Notes under the pieces: model-generated
The model's database searches: none
What the model was told of the DNA's origin: nothing
What the model saw: the letters and a program-made list of their open reading frames with translations, nothing else
IMG/VR virus record: IMGVR_UViG_3300035698_025955
Span: 1 to 45,494 of that record
Origin: a virus
Length of the DNA stretch: 45,494 nt
Direction: 5' to 3' (one strand)
Made by a program: the position numbers and the translations under genes
Shown: one piece after another, positions 7,184-29,526 of the stretch
Numbering within the stretch: the stretch's first letter is position 1
Layout of the letters: every line of letters begins with the position of its first letter

Positions 7184-7771
7184 ATGAGAGAACTAAATTA
7201 TGATGGTACACAGTTAAAATCAAACATAGCTTTTGATTTGTTAGAGGAGAAGGAGATACGAAAGATTAATGTTATTACAGGCAGAGGATTATGTGATGTT
7301 AGCTTAGAACATATGGTTGATTTAGAAGATGTAGTCGCTAATGAGCCTATCTTTTCAGATGATATGTATCATATAATCATAGAAGTATTAAATGACAGAG
7401 ACTTAGAGAAACTAGTTTACATGCAGAGATATATTATTAGACTAATTTCTGATGTAATTGCTAATATGTGCATAGGGTTAGAAGATATGGAAGTCCGAGG
7501 AGATGATATAATGATAGGTAAAGGAAAACTATCTGTATCAATTGCAACTTGCTCTATAACATCTGGGTTAATTCACATTGGGTTAAACGCACACGCAACA
7601 AAATGTCCTGAAGGTGTAGTTATGGCTACTCTTTATGAACTATTCGATAGTAAGCACGACGCAGATTTTGCAAAAACCTTAGGTATTTTTGATTTCGCCT
7701 TAACTACTAAACTTAAATCAGAGTTTCAAGATATCTTAGTAGCAACTAGTAAAGTTAAAGGGCTAGCTTAG
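7184..7771 (+). CDS. DUF366-like protein
   Basis: The 195-residue protein has a YDGTQL block near the N-terminus, HMVDLEDV near residue 45, and GKLSVSIATCSITSGLIHIGLN around 110-135. These match my memory of the DUF366 family, known mainly from archaea and some bacteria and of unknown function. The start follows a TAAGGAG site after the structured intergenic region. Its placement between the polymerase and the 5' exonuclease suggests a link to DNA metabolism, but that is inference from position. No membrane segments. Confidence 0.6.
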   Translation: MRELNYDGTQLKSNIAFDLLEEKEIRKINVITGRGLCDVSLEHMVDLEDVVANEPIFSDDMYHIIIEVLNDRDLEKLVYMQRYIIRLISDVIANMCIGLEDMEVRGDDIMIGKGKLSVSIATCSITSGLIHIGLNAHATKCPEGVVMATLYELFDSKHDADFAKTLGIFDFALTTKLKSEFQDILVATSKVKGLA

Positions 7772-18507: not shown

Positions 18508-19098
18508 ATGTACATAAGAAAAAAGTATACCGCAGAATCAGCGCACGCAGTACGTAATTGTGCAAGCTCTAGATGTTCAAGATCAGTTCACGGGCATTCA
18601 GCAATAATTGAAGTAATGCTGACTTCAGATAAGTTAGATAGAGGTGAGATGGTTTATGATTTCGGGTTGATGAAAGGCACAATTCGAGATATGATAGACA
18701 GCATGGATCACGCAATGCTGCTATGGGGTAATGATTTAGAAGAGTATATACAAGCAATGAAGACTTTCAGTGTACGATGGGTTGAGTTTGGATTTAATAC
18801 AACCGCAGAGCAATTAGCAAAATGGTGTTATATTATGATTACCAAGATTATAGAAAATACAACTTTTAGAAACCAAGAAGATGCTGATATAATGGTTGAG
18901 AAAGTAAAGTATCATGAAACAGCTTCTGGATATGCTTGCTTTACAAAAGAAGATTACTTTAAACTTAGTCCGAGAGAAATAGAAGATTTCTGGACAGCGA
19001 CAGTTTTTTCTGATGGTGTAGTTGCAGAATGGACTAATCCAGATATGTTAAAAGATTTGATAGCAGGTAAAAAATTCATTAATTTAAAAAAGGTATAG
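18508..19098 (+). CDS. queD: QueD, 6-carboxy-tetrahydropterin synthase
   Basis: QueD converts dihydroneopterin triphosphate to 6-carboxy-tetrahydropterin, the second step of 7-deazaguanine synthesis. The zinc ligands H13, H28 and H30 (SAHAVRN and VHGHS), the catalytic Cys at 23 (CSRSVHGH), D71-H72 (SMDHAM) and E141 (YHETASG) are all in place. At 196 residues it is longer than the usual 120-150 because of a central insert (about 80-130) and a C-terminal extension. It opens the deazaguanine cluster with its own AAAGGAG site and lies 2 nt before the phosphoribosyltransferase. Confidence 0.93.
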   Translation: MYIRKKYTAESAHAVRNCASSRCSRSVHGHSAIIEVMLTSDKLDRGEMVYDFGLMKGTIRDMIDSMDHAMLLWGNDLEEYIQAMKTFSVRWVEFGFNTTAEQLAKWCYIMITKIIENTTFRNQEDADIMVEKVKYHETASGYACFTKEDYFKLSPREIEDFWTATVFSDGVVAEWTNPDMLKDLIAGKKFINLKKV

Positions 19099-19099
19099 T

Positions 19100-19501
19100 A
19101 TGACAGATCATCCGAGTTATAAAGACGCAGAGAAGTATTCATTATCTTACAATTCCTTTCTTGCACATGCAACAGAGTTAGTACAGTTGATTCAAAAAGC
19201 GGGTAAGAAGTATGAAGCAGTATATGCTATCCCAAGAGGCGGATTAGTACTAGGTGTCTTTCTTTCTCATGCGTTAGGTATACCAATGGTAGACGAAGTA
19301 CATAAAGGTGTATTAGTTGTAGATGATCTTGCTGATACAGGAGATACGCTGCAAGAATATTACAAGGAAGAGGATGTAGCAGTATTATTTATGAAACCTT
19401 GGAGTACGTTTACTCCAACTTATTTTGTTAGCAAAACTGAGTATTGGATTGAGTTTATGTGGGAGTTTGATATTAAGAAAAGATTAGGGGAGATAGCGTA
19501 A
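19100..19501 (+). CDS. Purine-type phosphoribosyltransferase
   Basis: The PRPP-binding motif VLVVDDLADTGDTL covers residues 71-84, with D75 and D76 the paired acidic residues. An AIPRGGLVLG loop at 43-52 is also typical of type I phosphoribosyltransferases. At 133 residues it is short, with a reduced hood. Relatives use xanthine, guanine or hypoxanthine. It lies between queD and folE2 in what looks like one operon, so it may salvage guanine released when DpdA swaps the base, or act on a deazaguanine base. That link is inference. It overlaps the next gene by 1 nt. Confidence 0.8.
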   Translation: MTDHPSYKDAEKYSLSYNSFLAHATELVQLIQKAGKKYEAVYAIPRGGLVLGVFLSHALGIPMVDEVHKGVLVVDDLADTGDTLQEYYKEEDVAVLFMKPWSTFTPTYFVSKTEYWIEFMWEFDIKKRLGEIA

Positions 19502-19698
19502 TGTACGGCTTAACATCTCGGCTAGATAATGCTTGGATGCATATGAGTGCGATGAGTTTGGATTACTTACAGAAAGAGATAATCAAGAAGTTTGTAATGC
19601 AAGAAGTTAAAGATGCTCGAATAGAGACTTTAGAGTGGGCGAGAAGAAAAAATTTATTTGAAATTATAAAGAGAATAAAGGATATAAAGGAGAGTTAG
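19501..19698 (+). CDS. Small helical protein, 65 aa
   Basis: The ATG shares a base with the phosphoribosyltransferase stop (TAATG). The product is predicted as two charged helices rich in Lys, Glu and Arg. No motif is recognised. It is followed 4 nt later by folE2 and belongs to the same operon. Confidence 0.6.
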   Translation: MYGLTSRLDNAWMHMSAMSLDYLQKEIIKKFVMQEVKDARIETLEWARRKNLFEIIKRIKDIKES

Positions 19699-19702
19699 CG
19701 CA

Positions 19703-20527
19703 ATGGTAGAATTAAAAGATACACAGGCAGAAAAAGATACAAGAGATATTTTTATACAGAAAGTGGGGATACGTAATTATGAAGCACCTGTTAGAATACT
19801 TAGAAAAGACGGTACTGTTGCAGAGACAGTTGCAAACTTTAGTCTTTATGGTTCTCTGTCTGAGGAATTAAAAGGTACTAATATGTCTAGATTCAGTAGA
19901 GTCATCAATAGGGCAATTGCTGATCACAATATTGGTATTGATTTTATGTACGATGTACTAACTACTATGAAAAAAAGGTTAGAATGTGAGGATGTATATA
20001 TCAAGATTAGATTTCCATTCTTTGAAGAGAAGCTTGCACCTGTATCTAAGTTACCTTCTTTTGTCAAACGTGAGGTAGTATTCGAAGGCGAGTTACAAGA
20101 AGGCGTTCCTAAGACTTACTTAACAGTTAAAGCGAACTATATGTCACTATGTCCTTGCTCGAAGAATATGTCCCTTACAGACGAAGAAGAAGGTATTGGT
20201 AAAGGAGCGCATAATCAAAGATCTATTGCGTCTATTAAGGTTGAGCTTACTGAGATGGATGATAGAATTACTAACATTTGGATAGAAGACCTTGCCGATA
20301 TAGTTGATGCATCAGGATCTTGTCAGATATGGAACACTTTAAAGAGAGAAGATGAAAAATGGGTTACAGAAGAATCATATAACAATCCTAAATTTGTTGA
20401 GGATACTGCAAGAGATATTGCCTTAAAAGTACAAGTCTTTAATGTTCCTTTTGTTATCGTCGCTGAAAATTTTGAGAGTATTCATCAAAGCTCCGCTTGC
20501 GCAATTGTTAAGGGTGGGCTAAATTGA
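19703..20527 (+). CDS. folE2: GTP cyclohydrolase IB (FolE2)
   Basis: FolE2 converts GTP to dihydroneopterin triphosphate, the entry step to 7-deazaguanines. Family features: DTRDIFIQKVGIRNYEAPV near the N-terminus, LKGTNMSRFSRV at 57-67, SLCPCSKNMS with C150/C152, GAHNQRS at 168-174, and ENFESIHQSSA near the C-terminus. Length 274 is typical. Phages more often carry the unrelated type IA enzyme, so the type IB choice is worth noting; IB uses several metals and works when zinc is scarce. The stop overlaps the next gene's TTG start (TTGA). Confidence 0.93.
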   Translation: MVELKDTQAEKDTRDIFIQKVGIRNYEAPVRILRKDGTVAETVANFSLYGSLSEELKGTNMSRFSRVINRAIADHNIGIDFMYDVLTTMKKRLECEDVYIKIRFPFFEEKLAPVSKLPSFVKREVVFEGELQEGVPKTYLTVKANYMSLCPCSKNMSLTDEEEGIGKGAHNQRSIASIKVELTEMDDRITNIWIEDLADIVDASGSCQIWNTLKREDEKWVTEESYNNPKFVEDTARDIALKVQVFNVPFVIVAENFESIHQSSACAIVKGGLN

Positions 20528-20754
20528 GACCTTGGGAAGAAGAAAAAGAGCGTCCTGTAAAGTTTGTAGGCATTTTGCCTACAGAGTTTATAGATAAATT
20601 CATACGTAGAAGATTTAAGCTACCTAAGAAAGGTAATAGTATTTTACAGTTAGCTTTTAGAAAAGGTAATCTGTACATAGCTTCTAATATGAATTTAACA
20701 GAGGCAAATAAAGAGTGGGATGAGTTAGAGGAGAGAATTCAGAGGGGATTATAG
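20524..20754 (+). CDS. Uncharacterised basic protein, 76 aa
   Basis: The start is a TTG that overlaps the folE2 stop as TTGA, so translation is probably by coupling. The product has a compact alpha/beta pattern (RPVKFVGILPTEFIDKF, then ILQLAFRKGNLYIAS). No family is recognised. It lies inside the deazaguanine operon. Confidence 0.6.
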   Translation: MRPWEEEKERPVKFVGILPTEFIDKFIRRRFKLPKKGNSILQLAFRKGNLYIASNMNLTEANKEWDELEERIQRGL

Positions 20755-21108
20755 ATGCGAAAGATACCAAAACGTAAGAAGATAAAACGATTACGAATAA
20801 GGGATGAGCGTCTGATAGAATTAATTGATAAGCTTTATTATAAAGTATTCCTTCTACGATTGTTTTTTATACCTAGTCTTCAAACAAAAGTTTATTCTAT
20901 TATAACTGAGAAATGGGTAATTACTTCTTACGGAGGACATGACACGAAAGTATATAAATGTAGTCCTTGGCACGCAGATGTTACAGAAATTGCAGTTGCA
21001 GGTAGTATTCAGATCTTTAAAGTTATTGGATATACAAAAGAGTTGATGGACCTTGTTATGATATTTAAATTATACAAACAATTAAATTTACCTAAGGAGA
21101 ATAAGTAG
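20755..21108 (+). CDS. Uncharacterised protein, 117 aa
   Basis: The ATG follows the preceding stop without a gap. The first 35 residues are very basic (KIPKRKKIKRLRIRDERL), then a hydrophobic stretch near 35-45 that is too short to be a confident membrane span, then a beta-rich part. It ends 1 nt before queE. No family recognised. Confidence 0.6.
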   Translation: MRKIPKRKKIKRLRIRDERLIELIDKLYYKVFLLRLFFIPSLQTKVYSIITEKWVITSYGGHDTKVYKCSPWHADVTEIAVAGSIQIFKVIGYTKELMDLVMIFKLYKQLNLPKENK

Positions 21109-21109
21109 T

Positions 21110-21799
21110 ATGAAAATTAATAGTATTTATGAAGGTATTGAAGGAGAAGGAAAGCATATAGGAACACCGACTACATTTATCAGAACACAGGGTTGTAAAG
21201 TTGGATGTAGGAATTGCGATACCTTAGAATCATGGGATGAGAATAAAGGTAAGAGTATGTCTGTTGGGGAGATAGTAGAAGAGCTGTATAGCCATTCTCC
21301 TGAAGTAATATCTATTACAGGAGGTAATCCTTTAGAGCAAGATATTGCACTTGTTCCCTTAATTCATGAGATAAATAGAACATTTATTACCTCTGAAATT
21401 AATATTGAGGTAACTGGTCAAGACTACAACGAACGTGTATTTGATCTTGTAGATAGGATAAGCTTAGACCTTAAGACTCCATCAACAGGAGTGAAAGCAA
21501 ATAAAGAAAACATAACACATATCCTTAAGAGATATAAAGATAAAGTTCAGCTTAAATGTGTTTGCGCTGACAATGAGGATTTAATCTTTATCATTAATAC
21601 ATACACAGAACTTAACAGCAGCTATGTACTAGATGATTATCAGATGATTATTACACCTTGTTACACACAGAAAGCTACTAAATTTGATTTCGATTTTATT
21701 AAAGAAATTAATGATAGCATATTAACTATTGGATATAAGATTAGAGTAATACTTCAGCAGCATAAAGTAATTTATGACAGTAAAGAGCAGAACGTATAA
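21110..21799 (+). CDS. queE: QueE, 7-carboxy-7-deazaguanine synthase
   Basis: QueE is a radical SAM enzyme that turns 6-carboxy-tetrahydropterin into 7-carboxy-7-deazaguanine. Residues C29, C33 and C36 (GCKVGCRNCD) form the Cx3Cx2C cluster site. YEGIEGEGKHIGTPTTFIR at 7-25 is the typical QueE start, SITGGNPL at 68-75 is the SAM-binding GGE-like motif, and SLDLKTPS follows. Length 229 is normal. A ribosome binding site (AAGGAG) lies before the ATG. It overlaps the next start by 1 nt. Confidence 0.95.
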   Translation: MKINSIYEGIEGEGKHIGTPTTFIRTQGCKVGCRNCDTLESWDENKGKSMSVGEIVEELYSHSPEVISITGGNPLEQDIALVPLIHEINRTFITSEINIEVTGQDYNERVFDLVDRISLDLKTPSTGVKANKENITHILKRYKDKVQLKCVCADNEDLIFIINTYTELNSSYVLDDYQMIITPCYTQKATKFDFDFIKEINDSILTIGYKIRVILQQHKVIYDSKEQNV

Positions 21800-22170
21800 T
21801 GAGGCTAGTTAAAGGTTTAGGCGGCTATGAGATACACATGGATGAAGAGGATGTTGAGTTATTAAACGACGCTTTGACATTCGTTAAGGTTGAAGAGGAC
21901 CGGGACGATTTGAACGATTATCTGGATATACTAATTAGAAAAATCAGTTTAAAACTTAAGAAATTTCTTAGAGAAGAAGGTAAGACTAACCCGACTGAGG
22001 CTACCACAGGGGAGTTTACATTTCTTCACCCTGATAATATATTTGTTCTACCTTTCGCGGAGAGTGTTTCCAGTATAAGCCAGATACCTCCCGCAGTACA
22101 GATGCATTTAGCAAATCTTCCGGAGAATGTACGTAAGGATCTTATAAAACTACTCGAGCGGAAGAAATAG
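21799..22170 (+). CDS. Uncharacterised acidic protein, 123 aa
   Basis: The ATG overlaps the queE stop (TAATG). The N-terminal 60 residues are acidic helices, and the C-terminal half is a compact domain with PPAVQMHLANLPENVRKDLIKLL. No family is recognised. Its place between queE and queF makes it a candidate accessory factor of the modification pathway, by position only. Confidence 0.6.
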   Translation: MRLVKGLGGYEIHMDEEDVELLNDALTFVKVEEDRDDLNDYLDILIRKISLKLKKFLREEGKTNPTEATTGEFTFLHPDNIFVLPFAESVSSISQIPPAVQMHLANLPENVRKDLIKLLERKK

Positions 22171-22193
22171 TTATATTAGTAAAGGGAGATGTT

Positions 22194-23093
22194 ATGATTA
22201 ATAAAGAAACATTACTAGGTAAATCGGGTGTAACAGCCTCTAGGGAGAGAGATGTAGATATACTCTTTCCTGTAGCAAGAAAGATAGACAGAGATGAAAT
22301 AGGTATTCCAGTACAAGAGCAGTTCGGAGTTGATATCTGGAATGCATATGAGTTTACATATATTAATAAGGAATCAGATATGCCTATTACAGGTGTATTA
22401 CAAATTATATATACTTCATTAAGTGATAATATTGTCGAGAGTAAATCTCTAAAACTATACTTAAACTCTTTTGCAAATATGAAGGCTACACAAGAGGAGA
22501 TTCAAATGTATGTACATATGGATCTAGAGAAAGTGGTTAGGGGTAGTATTAATGTATTATTTTATAGGTATAACGATTTTAATTCACTTTATCCTATTTA
22601 TGATACTGCTGCAATTACAAAAGAGATGAATATGATGCTATCACGTCCTTTCGCATTCTACCTTTTAGACCATGGGGATGTTGCAGAGCCTAGCAGAGGA
22701 GGTTTTCCTGTCTTCAAAACAAAAGAGTACACTACACAGGCGTCGAGAGTTTTTATATTCGAAGGCTTGAGAAGTAATTGCAAGGTAACAAAGCAGCCTG
22801 ATTCAGGGGATGCAGTAATAACAATCTCCGGCGATGCATATCCTACACCGGAAGAAATGGTACGTTTCCTTATTAATATGCGTACTGAAAATCATTTTCA
22901 CGAGGAGATCTCAGAGAGAATAATGCATGAGTTAGTTACTATGTTTGATCCAAAAGAGGTACTCATTCAGCTTAACTATGCAAGACGGGGTGGTATCGAT
23001 ATTAATCCTATTCGGCATTACAGAAAAAATGCAACCCTTACTGACGACTCTGTTTATATAGATAAACATTGGTTTAGAACGGCTAGGCAATAG
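22194..23093 (+). CDS. queF: Bimodular QueF, NADPH-dependent preQ0 reductase
   Basis: QueF reduces the nitrile of preQ0 to the aminomethyl group of preQ1. The whole 299-residue protein aligns with the long (E. coli type) two-fold QueF. VESKSLKLYLNSF at 81-93 carries the family motif, C196 (RSNCKVTKQPD) is the catalytic Cys and D203 the matching Asp, HFHEE at 234-238 gives the His/Glu pair, and RRGGIDINPIR is the C-terminal signature. All catalytic residues are kept, so real preQ1 production is likely. It starts after an AAAGGGAG site and ends 1 nt before the fusion gene. Confidence 0.96.
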   Translation: MINKETLLGKSGVTASRERDVDILFPVARKIDRDEIGIPVQEQFGVDIWNAYEFTYINKESDMPITGVLQIIYTSLSDNIVESKSLKLYLNSFANMKATQEEIQMYVHMDLEKVVRGSINVLFYRYNDFNSLYPIYDTAAITKEMNMMLSRPFAFYLLDHGDVAEPSRGGFPVFKTKEYTTQASRVFIFEGLRSNCKVTKQPDSGDAVITISGDAYPTPEEMVRFLINMRTENHFHEEISERIMHELVTMFDPKEVLIQLNYARRGGIDINPIRHYRKNATLTDDSVYIDKHWFRTARQ

Positions 23094-23094
23094 G

Positions 23095-24477
23095 ATGTTA
23101 GTAGATATACATGTTCATTTAGGGTCTATTCCTGGAAAGAATGGAGTGTTATATAAGTTTGTTTCCCCTAAAGAAGTGTTCGAGTATGCTTTGCATGAGG
23201 ATCTAACTCACATAGGCGTCATGTATATACCTGCTGAACTAGAGTTACTTATGGAAGTCTTTGAACTATGCGGTTCTAAGATAAAAGTGTTTCCTATTCA
23301 ATGGATTCAGGACTACGAGGTAGATGAGATTAATGATTTTGATTTTGGTATAAAGCTTCATACTTTAAGAGGCAAACAATCTCTTGATTCTATTGCAGAT
23401 AAGGTGCTGATAAAGTTTTTAAAAACTATACCAGGTAATACTAAAGTATTTATTCACACTCAGAGTGGCTCATTAAGTAGTAAGCATTGTATGGCGCAAT
23501 TCCTTGGGCTATTTAAGAAGTTTCCTTTGTTAACTTGGGTGCTCTGTCACGCAGGAGGAGCTACTAACAATAATACTTATTATATGAACAGATACGCAGA
23601 GCATTTAACATCAGCTCAGAAGAGAGATTATGATCTAATGGCGCTACCTGTTGATGCTAACATTTATATAGCCGCTCTTTTAGCAAAGAGATTTCCAAAT
23701 GTGTACTTAGATACATCAATACTATTCTATTCTTTCTATAAATACAGACATTTATATGAAGTTGAACATAAACTTTTATGGGCATGTGATTTTCCTTTCT
23801 TCACTAAACTAACATCACCTGTTCGGCAACTTAAAAATTACATTCGGGGATGTGGAGTAACTGAAGAGAGGGCTCAGAAGGTGATAACTAATACAGTTAA
23901 CTTTCTTGAAGGGAAACCAGCTGAGCCTTCCCTGAAAATTCTATTTATGTCCTCGGGCTCGGGAGAGACTGTTACTTATCTCCATAAATTTAATCATGAA
24001 CATAATTTAAAAAACACAGATATTATAGGAATTGTTACTGATAGAGAGTGTAAAGCGGATAAGATTTTAAAAAGAGTTATACCAAAGTATAAGGTAGATG
24101 TTAAAAATTGGGGAGCTTACGAGGAATTGTTATTAGAACTTAAACCTGATGTTATTATACTATCAGGTTTTATGCGTATAGTGCCCGATTCTATATGTAC
24201 TAAATATTTAGTACTAAATTTACATCCGGGAGATCCAGATTTCTTTCCTGGATTAGATCCTCAGGAGCAGGCTGTAATGTCAGGAGCGACTCACACTGCT
24301 AACACAATTCATATAGTTACATCTGATTTAGATCAAGGACCGATTATACTAAAACAGTACGAAGGTATTCGGGAAGATGATGATACATATGCACTTGCTG
24401 CTAGGTTAAAAGCAAAATCTATGGAGATGTGGAAGTACGTAATTAGAGAGCGTCTTTGGGAGACTGTTGTTGATTAA
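23095..24477 (+). CDS. Amidohydrolase-PurN-like formyltransferase fusion, probable DpdN
   Basis: Two enzymes are joined. Residues 1-275 form an amidohydrolase-fold domain with a full set of metal ligands: H6 and H8 (DIHVHLG), K87 (GIKLHT), H121 (FIHTQS), H152 (CHAGG) and D232 (ACDFPF). Residues 280-460 form a formyltransferase like PurN: KILFMSSGSGE, LSGFMRIVP, N375 and H377 in LNLHPGDP, and D413 in DLDQGPII, which match the PurN catalytic Asn/His/Asp. It lies directly after queF. DpdN, a dPreQ1 formyltransferase, has been described in phages with formylated deazaguanine DNA, and this is the best candidate here. The role of the amidohydrolase half is unknown. Purine synthesis is the alternative, but no other pur gene is present. 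Confidence 0.8.
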   Translation: MLVDIHVHLGSIPGKNGVLYKFVSPKEVFEYALHEDLTHIGVMYIPAELELLMEVFELCGSKIKVFPIQWIQDYEVDEINDFDFGIKLHTLRGKQSLDSIADKVLIKFLKTIPGNTKVFIHTQSGSLSSKHCMAQFLGLFKKFPLLTWVLCHAGGATNNNTYYMNRYAEHLTSAQKRDYDLMALPVDANIYIAALLAKRFPNVYLDTSILFYSFYKYRHLYEVEHKLLWACDFPFFTKLTSPVRQLKNYIRGCGVTEERAQKVITNTVNFLEGKPAEPSLKILFMSSGSGETVTYLHKFNHEHNLKNTDIIGIVTDRECKADKILKRVIPKYKVDVKNWGAYEELLLELKPDVIILSGFMRIVPDSICTKYLVLNLHPGDPDFFPGLDPQEQAVMSGATHTANTIHIVTSDLDQGPIILKQYEGIREDDDTYALAARLKAKSMEMWKYVIRERLWETVVD

Positions 24478-24499
24478 CATGCTTTGAAGGTAGAAATAT

Positions 24500-25129
24500 A
24501 TGTACGACTCAACACTAAAACTAGTACAGCAGTTAAATTCTCTCAAAGGTGGAATTATTCTCTCTCCGCATTTTTTTAGATCTTTTGTTTGCCCCGCTGG
24601 TTGCGGCGCCTGCTGCTCTTCAAATATATCTGTTGACTTCTATGAAGGTACGGAGAGGTTTAAGAAATTTAAAAAGATCTATCCAGAGGAGTTAAAAATA
24701 TTTGAAAAAGTATTGTACAAAGGAATAACAATCTGGAGACTTACACAGGAAAATAACACTACAAAATTCTGTCATTTTATTAATGCTGCAGACGGCAGGT
24801 GCAAGATACATAAATGCAATGGATTATCCTGTGCTGTTGAGCCTATTAAGTTCTGGAAGAGAGGAAAGTCTTTGTTTCTATTGATAAAGGAATTTGGGAG
24901 AGGTTGGGCAATGAGAAGAATAGATGGGCATAAAGGCGCTGCATGTATGGTTAAGCCTTTCGAATATAAGTACCTCCTTAGTAATATAGCTATACTTCAA
25001 GAATTACAGGAATTATCAGAAATGCTTAATATCATAACTCCTTTACCGAAACTGTTATTATATTTAAACGAACACTTAAATCAATATGAAAAGGGTATCA
25101 TACCTGCATTTCCAAGAACATTTAAGTAA
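24500..25129 (+). CDS. YkgJ-family Cys-cluster protein
   Basis: C31, C35, C38 and C39 (CPAGCGACC) and a second set in KFCHF, RCKIHKC and LSCAVEP form the zinc/iron-chelating cluster of the YkgJ (CxxCxxCC) family. The family function is not settled; some members are suggested oxidoreductases or metal carriers. The C-terminal 60 residues are helical. It sits between the formyltransferase fusion and dpdA in the same direction, so it may serve the modification pathway. Length 209. Confidence 0.75.
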   Translation: MYDSTLKLVQQLNSLKGGIILSPHFFRSFVCPAGCGACCSSNISVDFYEGTERFKKFKKIYPEELKIFEKVLYKGITIWRLTQENNTTKFCHFINAADGRCKIHKCNGLSCAVEPIKFWKRGKSLFLLIKEFGRGWAMRRIDGHKGAACMVKPFEYKYLLSNIAILQELQELSEMLNIITPLPKLLLYLNEHLNQYEKGIIPAFPRTFK

Positions 25130-25140
25130 AGGAGAATACG

Positions 25141-25524
25141 ATGGCAATACAAATTAATATTGATAAACTACAAACTTACTTTAAAGGCGGTGGGTATGGA
25201 CCTAAAATAACTGCTTTCAACCCAAACAAAACAGTTCGTATAGACAGGCAGAATATAGAGTATTTGAATAATGGAAATGCAGAAGTATTTGCCATAGTTG
25301 TATCCTTCGATGAGGAGCAGCAATTATTAGTTATATCGAAAGCAGATGAAAAATATAGATTATCTTATAATGTTGGTGCTACAGGTGTTGTATCTATGTC
25401 CGGTGCGTTGAATCAGTTTGGAATTAATGTATCTGAGGAAGAAATAGACCTCTATGAGACTGAAACTGATATTGTTGAAGGGTTAGGAAGCTGTGTAATT
25501 ATTCATATGAGTAAGAAGCTATAG
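25141..25524 (+). CDS. Uncharacterised protein, 127 aa
   Basis: The start follows an AAAGGAG site. The protein is beta-rich with alternating hydrophobic residues (FAIVVSFDEEQQLLVIS) and an N-terminal GGGYGPK stretch. No motif is recognised. It lies between the YkgJ-like gene and dpdA. Confidence 0.65.
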   Translation: MAIQINIDKLQTYFKGGGYGPKITAFNPNKTVRIDRQNIEYLNNGNAEVFAIVVSFDEEQQLLVISKADEKYRLSYNVGATGVVSMSGALNQFGINVSEEEIDLYETETDIVEGLGSCVIIHMSKKL

Positions 25525-25556
25525 AAGACGTTATTTTAATAAAGGGAGAATATAAA

Positions 25557-26348
25557 ATGAGTATACAAAATGCAATTATATCAACAACAAATCATTTAGG
25601 TTTAAGCGACGAGGGAGACTTATACATGTGCCTTGCTTGGCTATGCCTAGAGGATGAGAACTACAAAGGCTTTTTTAAAATGAGAGCTGCAGAAGGTAAA
25701 TTTGTTATGCTTGATAATGGATGTAATGAAAATAAGCAAGTAACAAACCAAGAATTAGCAGACCTTGCCGTCTCTATGGGATTATCTGAAATAGTGCTGC
25801 CAGATACTTTTAGGGATATAGAAGATACAAATAGAAAGTTAAAAGATTTTATTATGTCTCCTAATTATGCTTACACTCAAAAGCACAATATAAAGTCAAT
25901 GGCTGTAGTGCAAGGGTCAACTTTACTTGAAGCAGTAGACCATTTTGAATTCCTGTTAAACTTAGAAGAGATTGATACAATAGGATTAGGGTTTGATAAC
26001 TACTTTACTATCGATTATCCTAATAAGACGCAAGGTGGAACTATTACGAGATTGTTACTAACACAGGCACTTGAGGAGAAGTTTGGGAATCAGATTCCTG
26101 GAGATAAGGTACACTTACTTGGATTATTTAATCCTATAGAGTTAAAGTATCAAAAGCAGTACCCTTGGATCAGATCGAATGATAGTAGTTCTCCTATTCT
26201 ATGCGGAGAGCATCTTCTAGAGTTCGACGAAGAAACAGGTATTGATGTAAAACCAGCGCAGTTCTTATCTTTCAAAGCACAGTTATCTAGAGAGTCTATT
26301 AATATGGCTATAGATAACATTAAGATATTAAAAAGCTGGAGTAAGTAA
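25557..26348 (+). CDS. dpdA: DpdA-like DNA guanine transglycosylase
   Basis: DpdA enzymes are TGT relatives that swap guanine in DNA for a 7-deazaguanine. Points matching the TGT barrel: D53 (MLDNGCNE), D83 (LPDTFRD), Q119 in MAVVQGST (TGT has VQGG), the glycine strand DTIGLGFDNY, HLLGLFNP (TGT LMGVGTP) and D209 in IRSNDSSSP, where TGT carries its nucleophile Asp. It lacks the TGT zinc site, and at 263 residues belongs with the short phage DpdA forms. It has its own AAAGGGAG site after a TTATTTTAATA stretch. A structured RNA candidate follows at once. I am confident of the family, less so of the subfamily. Confidence 0.85.
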   Translation: MSIQNAIISTTNHLGLSDEGDLYMCLAWLCLEDENYKGFFKMRAAEGKFVMLDNGCNENKQVTNQELADLAVSMGLSEIVLPDTFRDIEDTNRKLKDFIMSPNYAYTQKHNIKSMAVVQGSTLLEAVDHFEFLLNLEEIDTIGLGFDNYFTIDYPNKTQGGTITRLLLTQALEEKFGNQIPGDKVHLLGLFNPIELKYQKQYPWIRSNDSSSPILCGEHLLEFDEETGIDVKPAQFLSFKAQLSRESINMAIDNIKILKSWSK

Positions 26349-26349
26349 G

Positions 26350-26486
26350 ATGATACGGTAGCACCGTACTGATGTGAGGGCAAGACGGGTAAGCCTCATT
26401 AAGAACAATAAAAAATCCCGTCCAGTAAGTTAGTAACATGAGATGCTTATATGGAGCTACTGAATGGTGTGGTAAGCTTTATCATT
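26350..26486 (+). ncRNA. Candidate structured RNA 3 with H-type pseudoknot (after dpdA)
   Basis: ATGATA at 26350-26355 pairs with TATCAT at 26480-26485. Inside, TACGGT-AGC-ACCGTA (26354-26368) is a perfect hairpin that competes with the first pairs. TGAGG (26375-26379) pairs with CCTCA (26394-26398), and GACGGG in that loop (26384-26389) pairs with CCCGTC (26417-26422), bridged by an A-rich 18-nt strand. That is a textbook H-type pseudoknot. A TTAGTA/TACTGA helix follows. preQ1-I riboswitches use an H-type fold with an A-rich strand, but the conserved preQ1 loop bases are not seen. Confidence 0.45.
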
Positions 26487-26519
26487 ATAAAGTTACAGTT
26501 CGTAAGTTAGGAGCAAAGC

Positions 26520-26837
26520 ATGACAATTGAATTATCAACATCTTGGGTAGTTGTAGTATTTGTAATTATAGTACTACTTGCAATAATTGTAGATAGAGCA
26601 GATACTAAGAAGCACAAGAAGCGGGTGGATGCTATTAATGGCCAGTTTGAAAAGATGAATGAGCTTCAGGCAATAATAAAGAGTAATATGGATAAGAAGG
26701 ATAAGAAGAAATCTACTACATACAGGTGTAAGAATTGCGGGTATGAAGGTTATGCATACGGTGCAGCTACAAGCGCTGGTGTGTCCGCACCTTGGTGTCC
26801 TACTTGCAAGAAAAATAATTCGTTAGAGGAGATTTAG
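26520..26837 (+). CDS. Membrane-anchored zinc-ribbon protein, 105 aa
   Basis: A transmembrane segment spans about residues 8-24 (SWVVVVFVIIVLLAIIV). A charged helix follows, then a zinc ribbon with C70, C73, C93 and C96 (CKNC and CPTC). The start follows a TTAGGAG site at the end of the structured region. The layout suggests a membrane-tethered zinc domain facing the cytoplasm. No function assigned. Confidence 0.7.
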   Translation: MTIELSTSWVVVVFVIIVLLAIIVDRADTKKHKKRVDAINGQFEKMNELQAIIKSNMDKKDKKKSTTYRCKNCGYEGYAYGAATSAGVSAPWCPTCKKNNSLEEI

Positions 26838-26838
26838 T

Positions 26839-27108
26839 ATGGCAGAAGGGGATGGGGTTAAAGCAAAAAGTCATCATGATAGACGGCTAACACAGAACAG
26901 AACAGATACATCGTCTCGCTCAAGAGTCAAAGGATTTAGCTTAGAGTATTTAAAGGAAAGAATGAAGAGATGCCCAGAGTGCGGAGCTAAAGCACACTTC
27001 AGAGGCGATTCATACTTCTGCGAGGAAGCGGATGAGATATGCGGTTTTGTAAAGCATAAAAATTCTATAACTGACGGAGATATACTTAAAGCAGGTATGA
27101 AACCGTGA
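26839..27108 (+). CDS. Small zinc-ribbon protein, 89 aa
   Basis: C45, C48, C61 and C68 (CPECG ... CEEADEIC) form a zinc-ribbon-like set after a basic, disordered N-terminus (residues 1-30). The start follows GAGGAG. It overlaps the next start by 4 nt (GTGA). Possible nucleic-acid binding; no family named. Confidence 0.65.
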   Translation: MAEGDGVKAKSHHDRRLTQNRTDTSSRSRVKGFSLEYLKERMKRCPECGAKAHFRGDSYFCEEADEICGFVKHKNSITDGDILKAGMKP

Positions 27109-27284
27109 TAATATCTTTTGACCCAAATAAAGTAATGTGCGAGTTTTTCGGATTTCACGCCTTCGACGAGCCTAAAGTAAATCAGGCAAAGACTTATCTT
27201 AAGGGTAAGCCTATCGTAGAGAAGACCTGTAAACACTGTCATAAAATAAAACGAAAGAGAACCTTAGTTTGGTTCTGGTGGTAA
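27105..27284 (+). CDS. Small CxxC protein, DUF1660-like, 59 aa
   Basis: A GTG start overlaps the previous stop (GTGA). The product contains VMCEFFGFHAF and TCKHCHKIKRKR, which recall the short DUF1660 prophage proteins (CxxFGH ... CxxC). It ends in an unusual Trp/Phe-rich VWFWW. No function known. Confidence 0.5.
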   Translation: MIISFDPNKVMCEFFGFHAFDEPKVNQAKTYLKGKPIVEKTCKHCHKIKRKRTLVWFWW

Positions 27285-27285
27285 T

Positions 27286-27423
27286 ATGAAACACTGGATA
27301 ATAACAATTATAGTAGCAGTAGTAATCAGTATATGTATGCATGTCTACAAAATTCAGCTTAAGTTCTCTATCCTAAAAGAAACAGAGCCTGTAGTAGAGA
27401 TGTGGTTAGGTCAAGGTACTTAA
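27286..27423 (+). CDS. Small single-pass membrane protein, 45 aa
   Basis: The ATG lies 1 nt after the preceding stop. Residues 4-20 are a hydrophobic segment (WIITIIVAVVISICMHV) after a basic N-terminus. The stop overlaps the next ATG (TAATG). No function assigned. Confidence 0.5.
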   Translation: MKHWIITIIVAVVISICMHVYKIQLKFSILKETEPVVEMWLGQGT

Positions 27424-27620
27424 TGTCGAAGCTTATTGTAATAAATAATTGCGGTGAGTGTCCTAAACGGGATGAAGTTATATATAATAGGAAGATTACC
27501 TATTGCAGTTTGCTTTATAGTGCATGTGATTTCATAAAAGATGATCATGTAGCAGTTATAGCAGTAAAAGATTTTGATAAATTGAAGCCAGAATGTCCAT
27601 TAGTTGATCAAGGGAGATAA
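27423..27620 (+). CDS. Small Cys-rich protein, 65 aa
   Basis: I take the ATG at 27423, which overlaps the preceding stop, instead of an in-frame GTG at 27402. The product has CGECPKRD, YCSLLYSAC and ECPL, six Cys in all, a probable metal site. No family named. Confidence 0.55.
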   Translation: MSKLIVINNCGECPKRDEVIYNRKITYCSLLYSACDFIKDDHVAVIAVKDFDKLKPECPLVDQGR

Positions 27621-27621
27621 G

Positions 27622-27795
27622 ATGAAGAGAGTAACATGTAATACATTTACTGCGACAAGTACACACGTTATAGGTCCAAGTATGAAAGAAGCTTTGGATA
27701 AAGCAGGATTACTTATAGAGGTTAAGGATAAAGATGGTAATGAGTTTCTTACTATTGATGAAGGTCAATTAAGTAAGCTGGGTAAGAAGGGATGA
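27622..27795 (+). CDS. Uncharacterised protein, 57 aa
   Basis: The ATG at 27622 has a well-placed AAGGGAG site and is preferred to an in-frame TTG at 27604. The product is a small alpha/beta protein (MKEALDKAGLLIEVKDKDG). It overlaps the next gene by 4 nt. Confidence 0.55.
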   Translation: MKRVTCNTFTATSTHVIGPSMKEALDKAGLLIEVKDKDGNEFLTIDEGQLSKLGKKG

Positions 27796-28322
27796 AGCTG
27801 GTTACAGACTACGAAGTAGAAGGTTGCTGGGGTAGCATAGATCTTGAACGTAAATCCAAATGTAGAAAATGCGGTGCTGTTGAAGAGCTTGTTCCTAAAG
27901 AAGGGCATTTTAATTCTAAGTACTGGCCATTACAGCAGGCGGATGGATTATTCTTACTATGCTGTCCAGAGGGCTGCAATGTAGATAGTGCAGTTAAGGC
28001 AGGTGCTTACTTCATGCGTATATCTGAATTCTGCGTAAAGGGTAGTACTTCCGGTAAGTATACCTTAGATTTTTCAAAAATTAGAGATGCTTGGGTTGAT
28101 AGAACAGGTAAACTTATTCCTGTTCTTATACAAGGGCATAGTAACTATTGTATAAGTATTGGCAAGGATGAGAATATAATTGAAAACTTAGGTTGGGTAA
28201 AGATATCAGATCTATCCCCCTTAATGCTCGCACAGCATTTAAGAGTTACTCCTAAACAGAAAGTTACTGTGCAAGAGTTGTTTATGTTTCATAAAATAAG
28301 AATACCGGGTAAGTATCTTTAG
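27792..28322 (+). CDS. Cys-rich zinc-ribbon-type protein, 176 aa; possible +1 frameshift at its end
   Basis: C24 and C27 (CRKCG) and CCPEGC near 57-62 look like a zinc ribbon in the N-terminal third. The remainder is a mixed alpha/beta domain I do not recognise. The ATG overlaps the previous gene (ATGA). The last codons are TAT CTT TAG. In the +1 frame the sequence stays open for another 79 codons to 28557, so readthrough by a +1 slip on CTT would give a protein of about 255 residues. Confidence 0.65.
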   Translation: MKLVTDYEVEGCWGSIDLERKSKCRKCGAVEELVPKEGHFNSKYWPLQQADGLFLLCCPEGCNVDSAVKAGAYFMRISEFCVKGSTSGKYTLDFSKIRDAWVDRTGKLIPVLIQGHSNYCISIGKDENIIENLGWVKISDLSPLMLAQHLRVTPKQKVTVQELFMFHKIRIPGKYL

Positions 28323-28419
28323 TAAAGTAGTTAGTATTATTGATAGAGAATTTACACATCCTCACAGAGAATGGGAATTTTATCTAGATTTAGCTAAGAA
28401 GAAGAAAGAGGTGATAAAG

Positions 28420-28557
28420 GTGAGGGCAAAGGTAATAAGTCTATTGCATGCTAATAGACAAGATATAGTTATAAAGGCAATAACACATACAGAAAGTTTT
28501 ACAGAAGCGAATAAAGGATTTGCACATGAAAAAGATAATACTGCACATAGCAATTAG
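28420..28557 (+). CDS. Small uncharacterised protein, 45 aa, or the 3' part of a frameshifted gene
   Basis: A GTG with a good GAGGTGA site 5 nt upstream starts a 45-codon frame (MRAKVISLLHANRQDIV...). The same frame is open upstream to 28300 with protein-like sequence (IIDREFTHPHREWEFYLDLAKKKK) and no usable start, so it may instead be the +1 extension of the gene ending at 28322. It overlaps the next small gene by 32 nt. Confidence 0.4.
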   Translation: MRAKVISLLHANRQDIVIKAITHTESFTEANKGFAHEKDNTAHSN

Positions 28558-28621
28558 ACTAACGTACCTGAGTATCGGATATCAGTTAGCTCTACTTGTA
28601 GATTTAATGCGTTATAAATAA
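28526..28621 (+). CDS. Very small hydrophobic peptide, 31 aa
   Basis: An ATG with an AAAGGA site runs 31 codons to TAA, 11 nt before queC. The product has a basic start and a mostly hydrophobic middle (IILHIAIRLTYLSIGYQLALL), so it may be membrane-associated. It could be a chance frame. Confidence 0.35.
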   Translation: MKKIILHIAIRLTYLSIGYQLALLVDLMRYK

Positions 28622-28632
28622 AGGAGGAAGAG

Positions 28633-29526
28633 ATGTTAATAGCAGAAGGAGTAGAAAGTAGTAACATATTCAAAATTGGATATGTAAAAGATAATAAAGA
28701 ATTAAGAGTTATGTTTACCGATCAGACCACATATAGTTTTAAAGGTGTTCCTGAGGAGCAGTATCTTGCTTTTATTAGTGCGCCTTCTGTAGGTAAGTAT
28801 TTTCATGCTTACATACGAAATAGTTTTGAGGGTAAGAAGATATTAGGTTTTATTGAGGATTGCATAGTACTACTAAGCGGTGGTGCAGATAGTACTACTT
28901 TACTTTATTCTGCATTAAACGAGTTCCGTTTTCCATTAGTTGTATCTTTTGATTATGGACAGAAGCATGTGAGAGAATTAGGTATGGCTGAAAAGACTTG
29001 TAAAGAATTAGGGCTAAGGCACAAAATACTTCACATAGATTTAAATCAGATAGGTGGATCACCTTTAACAGATAATTCATTAGAAGTACCTGATCAAGTA
29101 GCAGACGCACAGAGATCAACAGTTGTTCCATATAGGAATATGCTGCATATTACAATGGCAGTAGCATTAGGCGAGGTAGAAGGTATTACTGATGAGAACG
29201 AGGATCTATCTATTTATCACGGTGCTTGCCTAGAAGACTTTGAAAACTACAGAGATTGCAGAGGTGTATTTTTCAAAGCATTATCAGAAGCTCTTTCATT
29301 CGGAGGAACTGCAGAGACTTGTAGTGTAGAGATTAAGGCTCCTTTCTTAAAAATGAACAAGAAGCAGATTATTGAGAAAGGAATGCATCTACAAGTTCCT
29401 TACCAGAATACATATACTTGCTACAAAGGCGAATCAGTTGCGTGCGGTAAATGCGATGCCTGTGTTGAGAGAACAGCTGCATTTAAAGAATTAAAGCTTA
29501 TAGATCCAATTACTTACGCCTCTTAA
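28633..29526 (+). CDS. queC: KTSC-QueC fusion, 7-cyano-7-deazaguanine (preQ0) synthase
   Basis: QueC converts 7-carboxy-7-deazaguanine to preQ0 with ATP and ammonia. Residues 70-297 are a full QueC: PP-loop SGGADS at 82-87, FDYGQKH at 106-112, VPYRNM at 165-170, and zinc ligands C263, C271, C274 and C277 (CYKGESVACGKCDAC). Residues 1-70 are a separate KTSC-type domain (SSNIFKIGYVKDNKELRVMF ... VGKYFHAYIRN), a small domain seen alone or fused to nucleic-acid enzymes. I do not know of this fusion. The start follows an AAGGAGG site. It lies apart from the other que genes by about 2.3 kb of small genes and ends at a terminator. Confidence 0.93.
   Translation: MLIAEGVESSNIFKIGYVKDNKELRVMFTDQTTYSFKGVPEEQYLAFISAPSVGKYFHAYIRNSFEGKKILGFIEDCIVLLSGGADSTTLLYSALNEFRFPLVVSFDYGQKHVRELGMAEKTCKELGLRHKILHIDLNQIGGSPLTDNSLEVPDQVADAQRSTVVPYRNMLHITMAVALGEVEGITDENEDLSIYHGACLEDFENYRDCRGVFFKALSEALSFGGTAETCSVEIKAPFLKMNKKQIIEKGMHLQVPYQNTYTCYKGESVACGKCDACVERTAAFKELKLIDPITYAS

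Follow-up and report, generated by a model that had tools for sequence, protein, structure and literature searches.

A gene of a virus recorded in IMG/VR combines an amidohydrolase (AH) domain and a formyltransferase (FT) domain in one protein and lies within a cluster of 7-deazaguanine genes. The combination is new relative to the related viruses and genomes that we searched, and it hints at a further step in viral DNA modification. The reading that we tentatively prefer, at somewhat less than even likelihood, is that the fusion is a bifunctional enzyme of the phage 7-deazaguanine DNA-modification pathway, with an FT half that formylates preQ1 or dPreQ1 and an AH half that acts on that substituent. 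By carrying 7-deazaguanine bases, phage DNA is shielded from restriction enzymes, and each odd enzyme found in these clusters has lengthened the list of bases. A hydrolase-formyltransferase fusion with a methyltransferase-type gene next to it suggests a step (formyl editing, protection or further conversion) that is missing from current pathway schemes, with some chance that the final base is undescribed. As one expressible protein, the fusion lends itself to testing such a step.

A single open reading frame encodes both domains

The fusion gene occupies positions 23095-24477 on the plus strand of the window, as we call the whole 45,494-nucleotide stretch of DNA that was analysed. It encodes 460 amino acids, from an ATG at 23095 to a stop at 24477, without an internal stop. 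The AH half (23095-23925, plus strand; residues 1-277) is of the PF04909/COG2159 type, and the FT half (23926-24477, plus strand; residues 278-460) is of the glycinamide-transformylase fold. Pfam comparison yielded a PF04909 (Amidohydro_2) match at residues 116-238 (E=5.3e-7; 30.1 bits, cut-off 26.4) and a PF00551 (formyl transferase) match at residues 281-444 (E=1.2e-20; 74.5 bits, cut-off 26.1). Because both matches exceed the curated thresholds, the two domain calls are not due to chance, and the original prediction of a two-domain fusion in this frame holds. For the whole protein, no NCBIfam or PHROG model covers both domains.

The fusion is known from one metagenomic contig alone, as might be expected of an assembly or sequencing artefact that joined two genes. 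Against such an artefact, the junction between the halves is in frame, with no stop and a short linker, and the GC content, GC3 and codon usage of both halves are those of the rest of the contig. The start is coupled as well: the ATG lies one base past the queF stop (TAG-G-ATG), and the two genes are probably translationally coupled. Since the composition is uniform, the junction in frame and the neighbours members of one coherent pathway, an assembly chimera of two genes appears unlikely, and we consider an artefact of any kind scarcely credible. A chance match or artefact was rejected on the above-threshold Pfam scores and the uniform composition and codon usage.

The fusion is embedded in a preQ1 gene cluster

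The region 18508-29526 is, as judged by homology, a full route to preQ1 and to its insertion into DNA. Upstream of the fusion it carries genes for QueD (6-carboxytetrahydropterin synthase; 18508-19098; NCBIfam and PHROG model matches), FolE2 GTP cyclohydrolase (19703-20527; Pfam and NCBIfam matches), QueE (7-carboxy-7-deazaguanine synthase; 21110-21799; NCBIfam and PHROG model matches) and a long-form QueF-type preQ0 nitrile reductase (22194-23093), which has a catalytic-type RSNC motif at C196 and is predicted to make preQ1. Downstream are genes for a CxxCxxCC protein (PF03692; 24500-25129), a DpdA-type DNA guanine transglycosylase (25557-26348), whose relative in Flavobacterium phage immuto is annotated DpdA, and QueC (preQ0 synthase, by homology; 28633-29526). 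All of these genes are on the plus strand. The 7-deazaguanine setting proposed originally was borne out, with folE2, queD, queE, queC, queF and dpdA all in the cluster.

The DNA polymerase of the virus is closest to Lysinibacillus and Bacillus myophage enzymes (30%), which makes a Bacillota host likely.

Several other features of the region were noted. The first pathway step is represented by FolE2 in the window, in place of FolE, which is the enzyme annotated in those related isolate phages that were examined. A small phosphoribosyltransferase-like gene (19100-19501, plus strand), which occurs too in many dpdN-type clusters, recurs in 34 loci of such clusters (as at L002:13771-14166). A DUF366 protein (PF04017, E=1.9e-38) is encoded at 7184-7771 of the window, within the replication gene block.

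The formyltransferase half is related to, but distinct from, PurN and DpdN

The catalytic triad of the FT half, N375, H377 and D413, aligns with N106, H108 and D144 of E. coli PurN, which confirms the Asn/His/Asp triad seen earlier, and the folate-side GFMRI motif is kept. The structure model of this half (pLDDT 90.8, pTM 0.86) matches solved PurN structures with a TM of about 0.85. The likeness to PurN in fold, triad and folate-side motif does not extend to S12, N13 and E173, the GAR-binding residues of the E. coli enzyme: they are replaced by E291, T292 and S442 in the window FT, and the HPSLLP of PurN, with its invariant LLP, is lost. Within PurN, N13 is conserved at 98% and E173 at 100%, and the DpdN-type proteins align there with Glu and Ser. 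The curated NCBIfam PurN model gave the window FT 72.5 bits, where 150.1 are required. From the sequence and the structure model, we conclude that the FT half is probably a folate-dependent formyltransferase with an acceptor other than GAR. A known purine-pathway enzyme, the outcome that would have spoken against the original prediction, was not what emerged: the GAR-binding residues are gone, and none of the family models describes a fusion of this kind.

Stand-alone FTs adjoin dpdA and/or queF in 79 other viral loci, which were found by scanning viral contigs for FT relatives and long-form queF and which, as they include near copies and short fragments, comprise 31 distinct rows below 60% identity. 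Among them is Flavobacterium phage immuto, in which the transglycosylase is annotated DpdA and the FT glycinamide formyltransferase. We equate these stand-alone FTs (e.g. QQO91746 of immuto) with the enzymes that Cui et al. 2023 named DpdN. None of the 79 FTs is fused (0/79). Because the stand-alone DpdN-type FT adjoins dpdA and queF in these loci, the FT half most likely works on preQ1, and the gene context suggests preQ1 or dPreQ1 as its natural candidate acceptor. As an observation in its own right, viral contigs often carry clusters of the order dpdA, stand-alone FT, queF and queC (79 loci, L023-L117), much more often than annotated isolates would lead one to expect. These loci also show the formyl branch to be far more widespread among viruses than it would seem from the few isolates with such annotation.

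The window FT shares with the DpdN-type enzymes (e.g. QQO91746) the fold, the triad, the dpdA and queF neighbours, the loss of PurN N13 and E173, the HPG and PQ motifs, and the residues G379, P389, Q390, L438, S442 and W446. In contrast to the window FT, DpdN is a stand-alone protein of about 175 amino acids with a PELKGKDPQ insert and an FSQTGSE start, and the window FT is fused to an amidohydrolase and encoded beside a DpdM-type gene. In its diagnostic residues, the window FT is a mosaic that keeps 6 of 23 DpdN-type and 5 of 13 PurN-type positions; DpdN-type members keep at least 15 of the 23, whereas no PurN member keeps more than 2 of them. A tree rooted with the outgroups Fmt, ArnA and PurU places the window FT outside the stand-alone DpdN-type clade (support 97/99), to which it is probably the sister (89/88), on a long branch; a topology that groups it with PurN instead was not rejected (p-AU 0.18). 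The original description of the FT as DpdN-like thus stands as far as the PF00551 match, the triad and the dpdA/queF setting are concerned, and needs correction for the position in the tree and the diagnostic residues. Simple DpdN membership was rejected on the placement outside the clade, and PurN identity on the lost GAR-site residues.

The amidohydrolase half retains a complete set of predicted metal ligands

The predicted metal site of the AH half consists of H6, H8, K87, H121, H152 and D232. In an alignment of the window AH with 34 relatives (35 rows, some of them fragments), H6, H8, K87, H121 and H152 are common to 28-32 rows, K87 being kept in 28, and D232 is present in 24. The ligands noted at the outset are therefore all retained, and this half appears to be a complete metal-dependent hydrolase. 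An insertion of about 32 residues (about 156-187) follows H152-A-G-G. The single-sequence structure model, with a pLDDT of 39, is too poor to show the TIM-barrel fold. Like the small amidohydrolases of COG2159/PF04909 (e.g. 3cjp and uncharacterised Bacillota proteins), the window AH has the HxH, KLH, H, H and D motifs and the PNVYLDTS segment; unlike them, it contains the 32-residue insertion, is fused to an FT and is phage-borne, and it is 25-28% identical to them.

No AH matches were found in isolate phages or in plasmids. A search of Bacillota genomes with the single sequence recovered one relative (1/399), an AH alone, and with a profile built from the window AH and two relatives the family turned up in 87 of the 200 Bacillota genomes searched. 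The family-profile scan of viral contigs identified one AH relative, without FT or que genes, and PF04909 was absent from 50 whole viral records.

Among characterised PDB entries, those related to the family profile are for the most part decarboxylases, alongside hydratases and a dihydroorotase; the closest are the 5-carboxyvanillate, 2-amino-3-carboxymuconate semialdehyde, gamma-resorcylate and uracil-5-carboxylate decarboxylases. The AH subfamily has Lys (K87, in K-L-H) at a strand-4 position that is occupied by Gln in 5-carboxyvanillate decarboxylase and ACMSD. In known dihydroorotase structures, this is the site of the metal-bridging carboxylated Lys, which speaks for the hydrolysis of an amide or ring rather than for decarboxylation.

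The fusion and its DpdM-type neighbour form a rare combination

Whole-protein and motif-steered scans revealed no second AH-FT fusion in viral contigs, nor did a first motif scan of genome contigs; a second motif scan of genome contigs returned PurN-type enzymes with no amidohydrolase kin nearby. The patterns for the motif-steered searches were picked from alignments with made-up second rows. The domain-architecture search thus agreed with the claimed rarity across the viral and genome contigs scanned. Among 80 FT loci, none besides the window contained AH kin in or near it.

The CxxCxxCC protein encoded next to the fusion is 40% identical to AGH07802 of Cellulophaga phage phiSM. Of 14 viral loci with relatives of its gene, 13 contain que genes as well, and the remaining locus breaks off where its contig ends. 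We assume that the name DpdM (dPreQ1 methyltransferase) applies to the phiSM-type CxxCxxCC protein. An amine methyltransferase role is plausible because the lysine methyltransferase FliB relies on an iron-sulphur cysteine motif of a similar kind (PMC8598068), and we regard the window protein as a putative DpdM-type amine methyltransferase. Among 32 FT-bearing records, 14 DpdM-type viral records and phiSM, some of which may be fragments, only the window has FT and DpdM-type genes together.

Possible functions of the fusion

In the preferred pathway, preQ1 would be made by QueF, whose gene is coupled to the fusion, and the FT half would transfer formyl from 10-formyl-THF onto the amine of the 7-aminomethyl group, either in preQ1 itself or in dPreQ1 within DNA. 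The AH half would act on the same substituent, most likely by hydrolysing or remodelling the N-formyl amide, although we propose this step less firmly than the FT step. Formylation would then be transient or edited, and would either precede methylation by the DpdM-type enzyme encoded next door or take its place; DpdA would place the base in DNA. The complete preQ1 pathway and the dpdA that surround the fusion support this scheme.

The chemistry has precedents. FwdA makes formylmethanofuran from formate and an amine (PMC11656701), and FhcA and the N-substituted formamide deformylase NfdA are named in PMC13081902. All three belong to the amidohydrolase superfamily, enzymes of which are known to act on N-formyl amides of ring-CH2-NH2 amines, and preQ1 is chemically such an amine. 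FwdA and the FhcA/FhcD complex resemble the proposed enzyme in that an amidohydrolase acts on the N-formyl of such an amine, and Fhc pairs the hydrolase with a formyltransferase. However, these are unrelated protein families, in separate subunits and in C1 metabolism, and the analogy is functional only; the FhcA and FhcD families are absent from the fusion, in which Pfam detects just PF04909 and PF00551. The Ara4N pathway of E. coli, the arnA and arnD genes of which were seen, shows that a formyl group may be added for a time only: ArnA is followed by ArnD, and the formylation is undone later by a deformylase within one pathway. Here too there are differences, since ArnA and ArnD are separate proteins with a sugar substrate and ArnD is not of PF04909.

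Several points count against the preferred reading. FwdA, FhcA and NfdA belong to amidohydrolase families other than PF04909, whose characterised members related to the AH half are mostly decarboxylases, hydratases or lactonases. The addition and removal of a formyl group by one protein would be futile unless split in time or place. In addition, the FT lies outside the DpdN clade, the fusion is a single case and the AH model is of low confidence. If the FT formylates preQ1 or dPreQ1 as DpdN does, the AH might instead make a further or different change, such as dehydrative ring closure of the formylated arm or the removal of a different group, yielding an undescribed base. The AH was found only in this virus among the 80 FT loci and the 50 whole records, and none of the other FT records checked has a DpdM-type gene like the one that adjoins the fusion, so something other than plain formyl-preQ1 may be produced. 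Moreover, PurH joins a formyltransferase and a cyclohydrolase in one protein, and reversible ring closure is catalysed by amidohydrolase enzymes such as dihydroorotase. This argument is built purely on gene content, and we consider it unlikely to be correct. On a related proposal we are doubtful, though a little less so: that the fusion and its DpdM-type neighbour make an undescribed 7-deazaguanine DNA base (e.g. N-formyl-N-methyl or ring-closed preQ1), or that the formyl serves as a temporary protecting group in DNA hypermodification.

The AH half might also be a decarboxylase that is merely tethered to an FT, with 7-carboxy-7-deazaguanine as one conceivable substrate (an activity known as DpdL). 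Such a role would agree with the closest characterised structures and with the aromatic carboxylate made by the QueE of the cluster. It would leave unexplained why a decarboxylase should be fused to an amine formyltransferase; the queC and queF also present would compete with it, and the Lys at position 87, in place of Gln, prevails in the subfamily. We judge it improbable. More improbable still is a role of the AH half on the folate side, where it would make or recycle the formyl donor. The FT half is expected from its fold and folate-side motif to need 10-formyl-THF, and amidohydrolases do act on cyclic amidines and imides, but methenyl-THF cyclohydrolases and formyl-THF synthetases are of other families, and we know of no PF04909 enzyme that makes or recycles a folate formyl donor. 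Finally, the FT half might be a phage purine-synthesis PurN and the fusion unrelated to DNA modification, for which we see very little room. The top pairwise identities of the FT are to PurN (31%), some PurN-diagnostic residues are kept and the PurN grouping was not rejected by the topology test; yet the GAR-binding residues and the invariant LLP are missing, no further purine-synthesis gene was seen in the window, and the gene order is that of dpdN clusters.

Some minor observations concern the compared loci. Two DpdA-type open frames lie side by side in one cluster (L077:6548-8228). A thymidylate kinase-like gene, which may handle modified nucleotides, adjoins FT or dpdA in immuto (L002:17409-17933) and in Campylobacter phage CP220 (L006:8717-9259). 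A 2019 paper supposed that a DpdA-independent route was possible for phages such as CP220 (PMC6884629); CP220 and its relatives encode an unannotated DpdA relative (L006:7899-8675).
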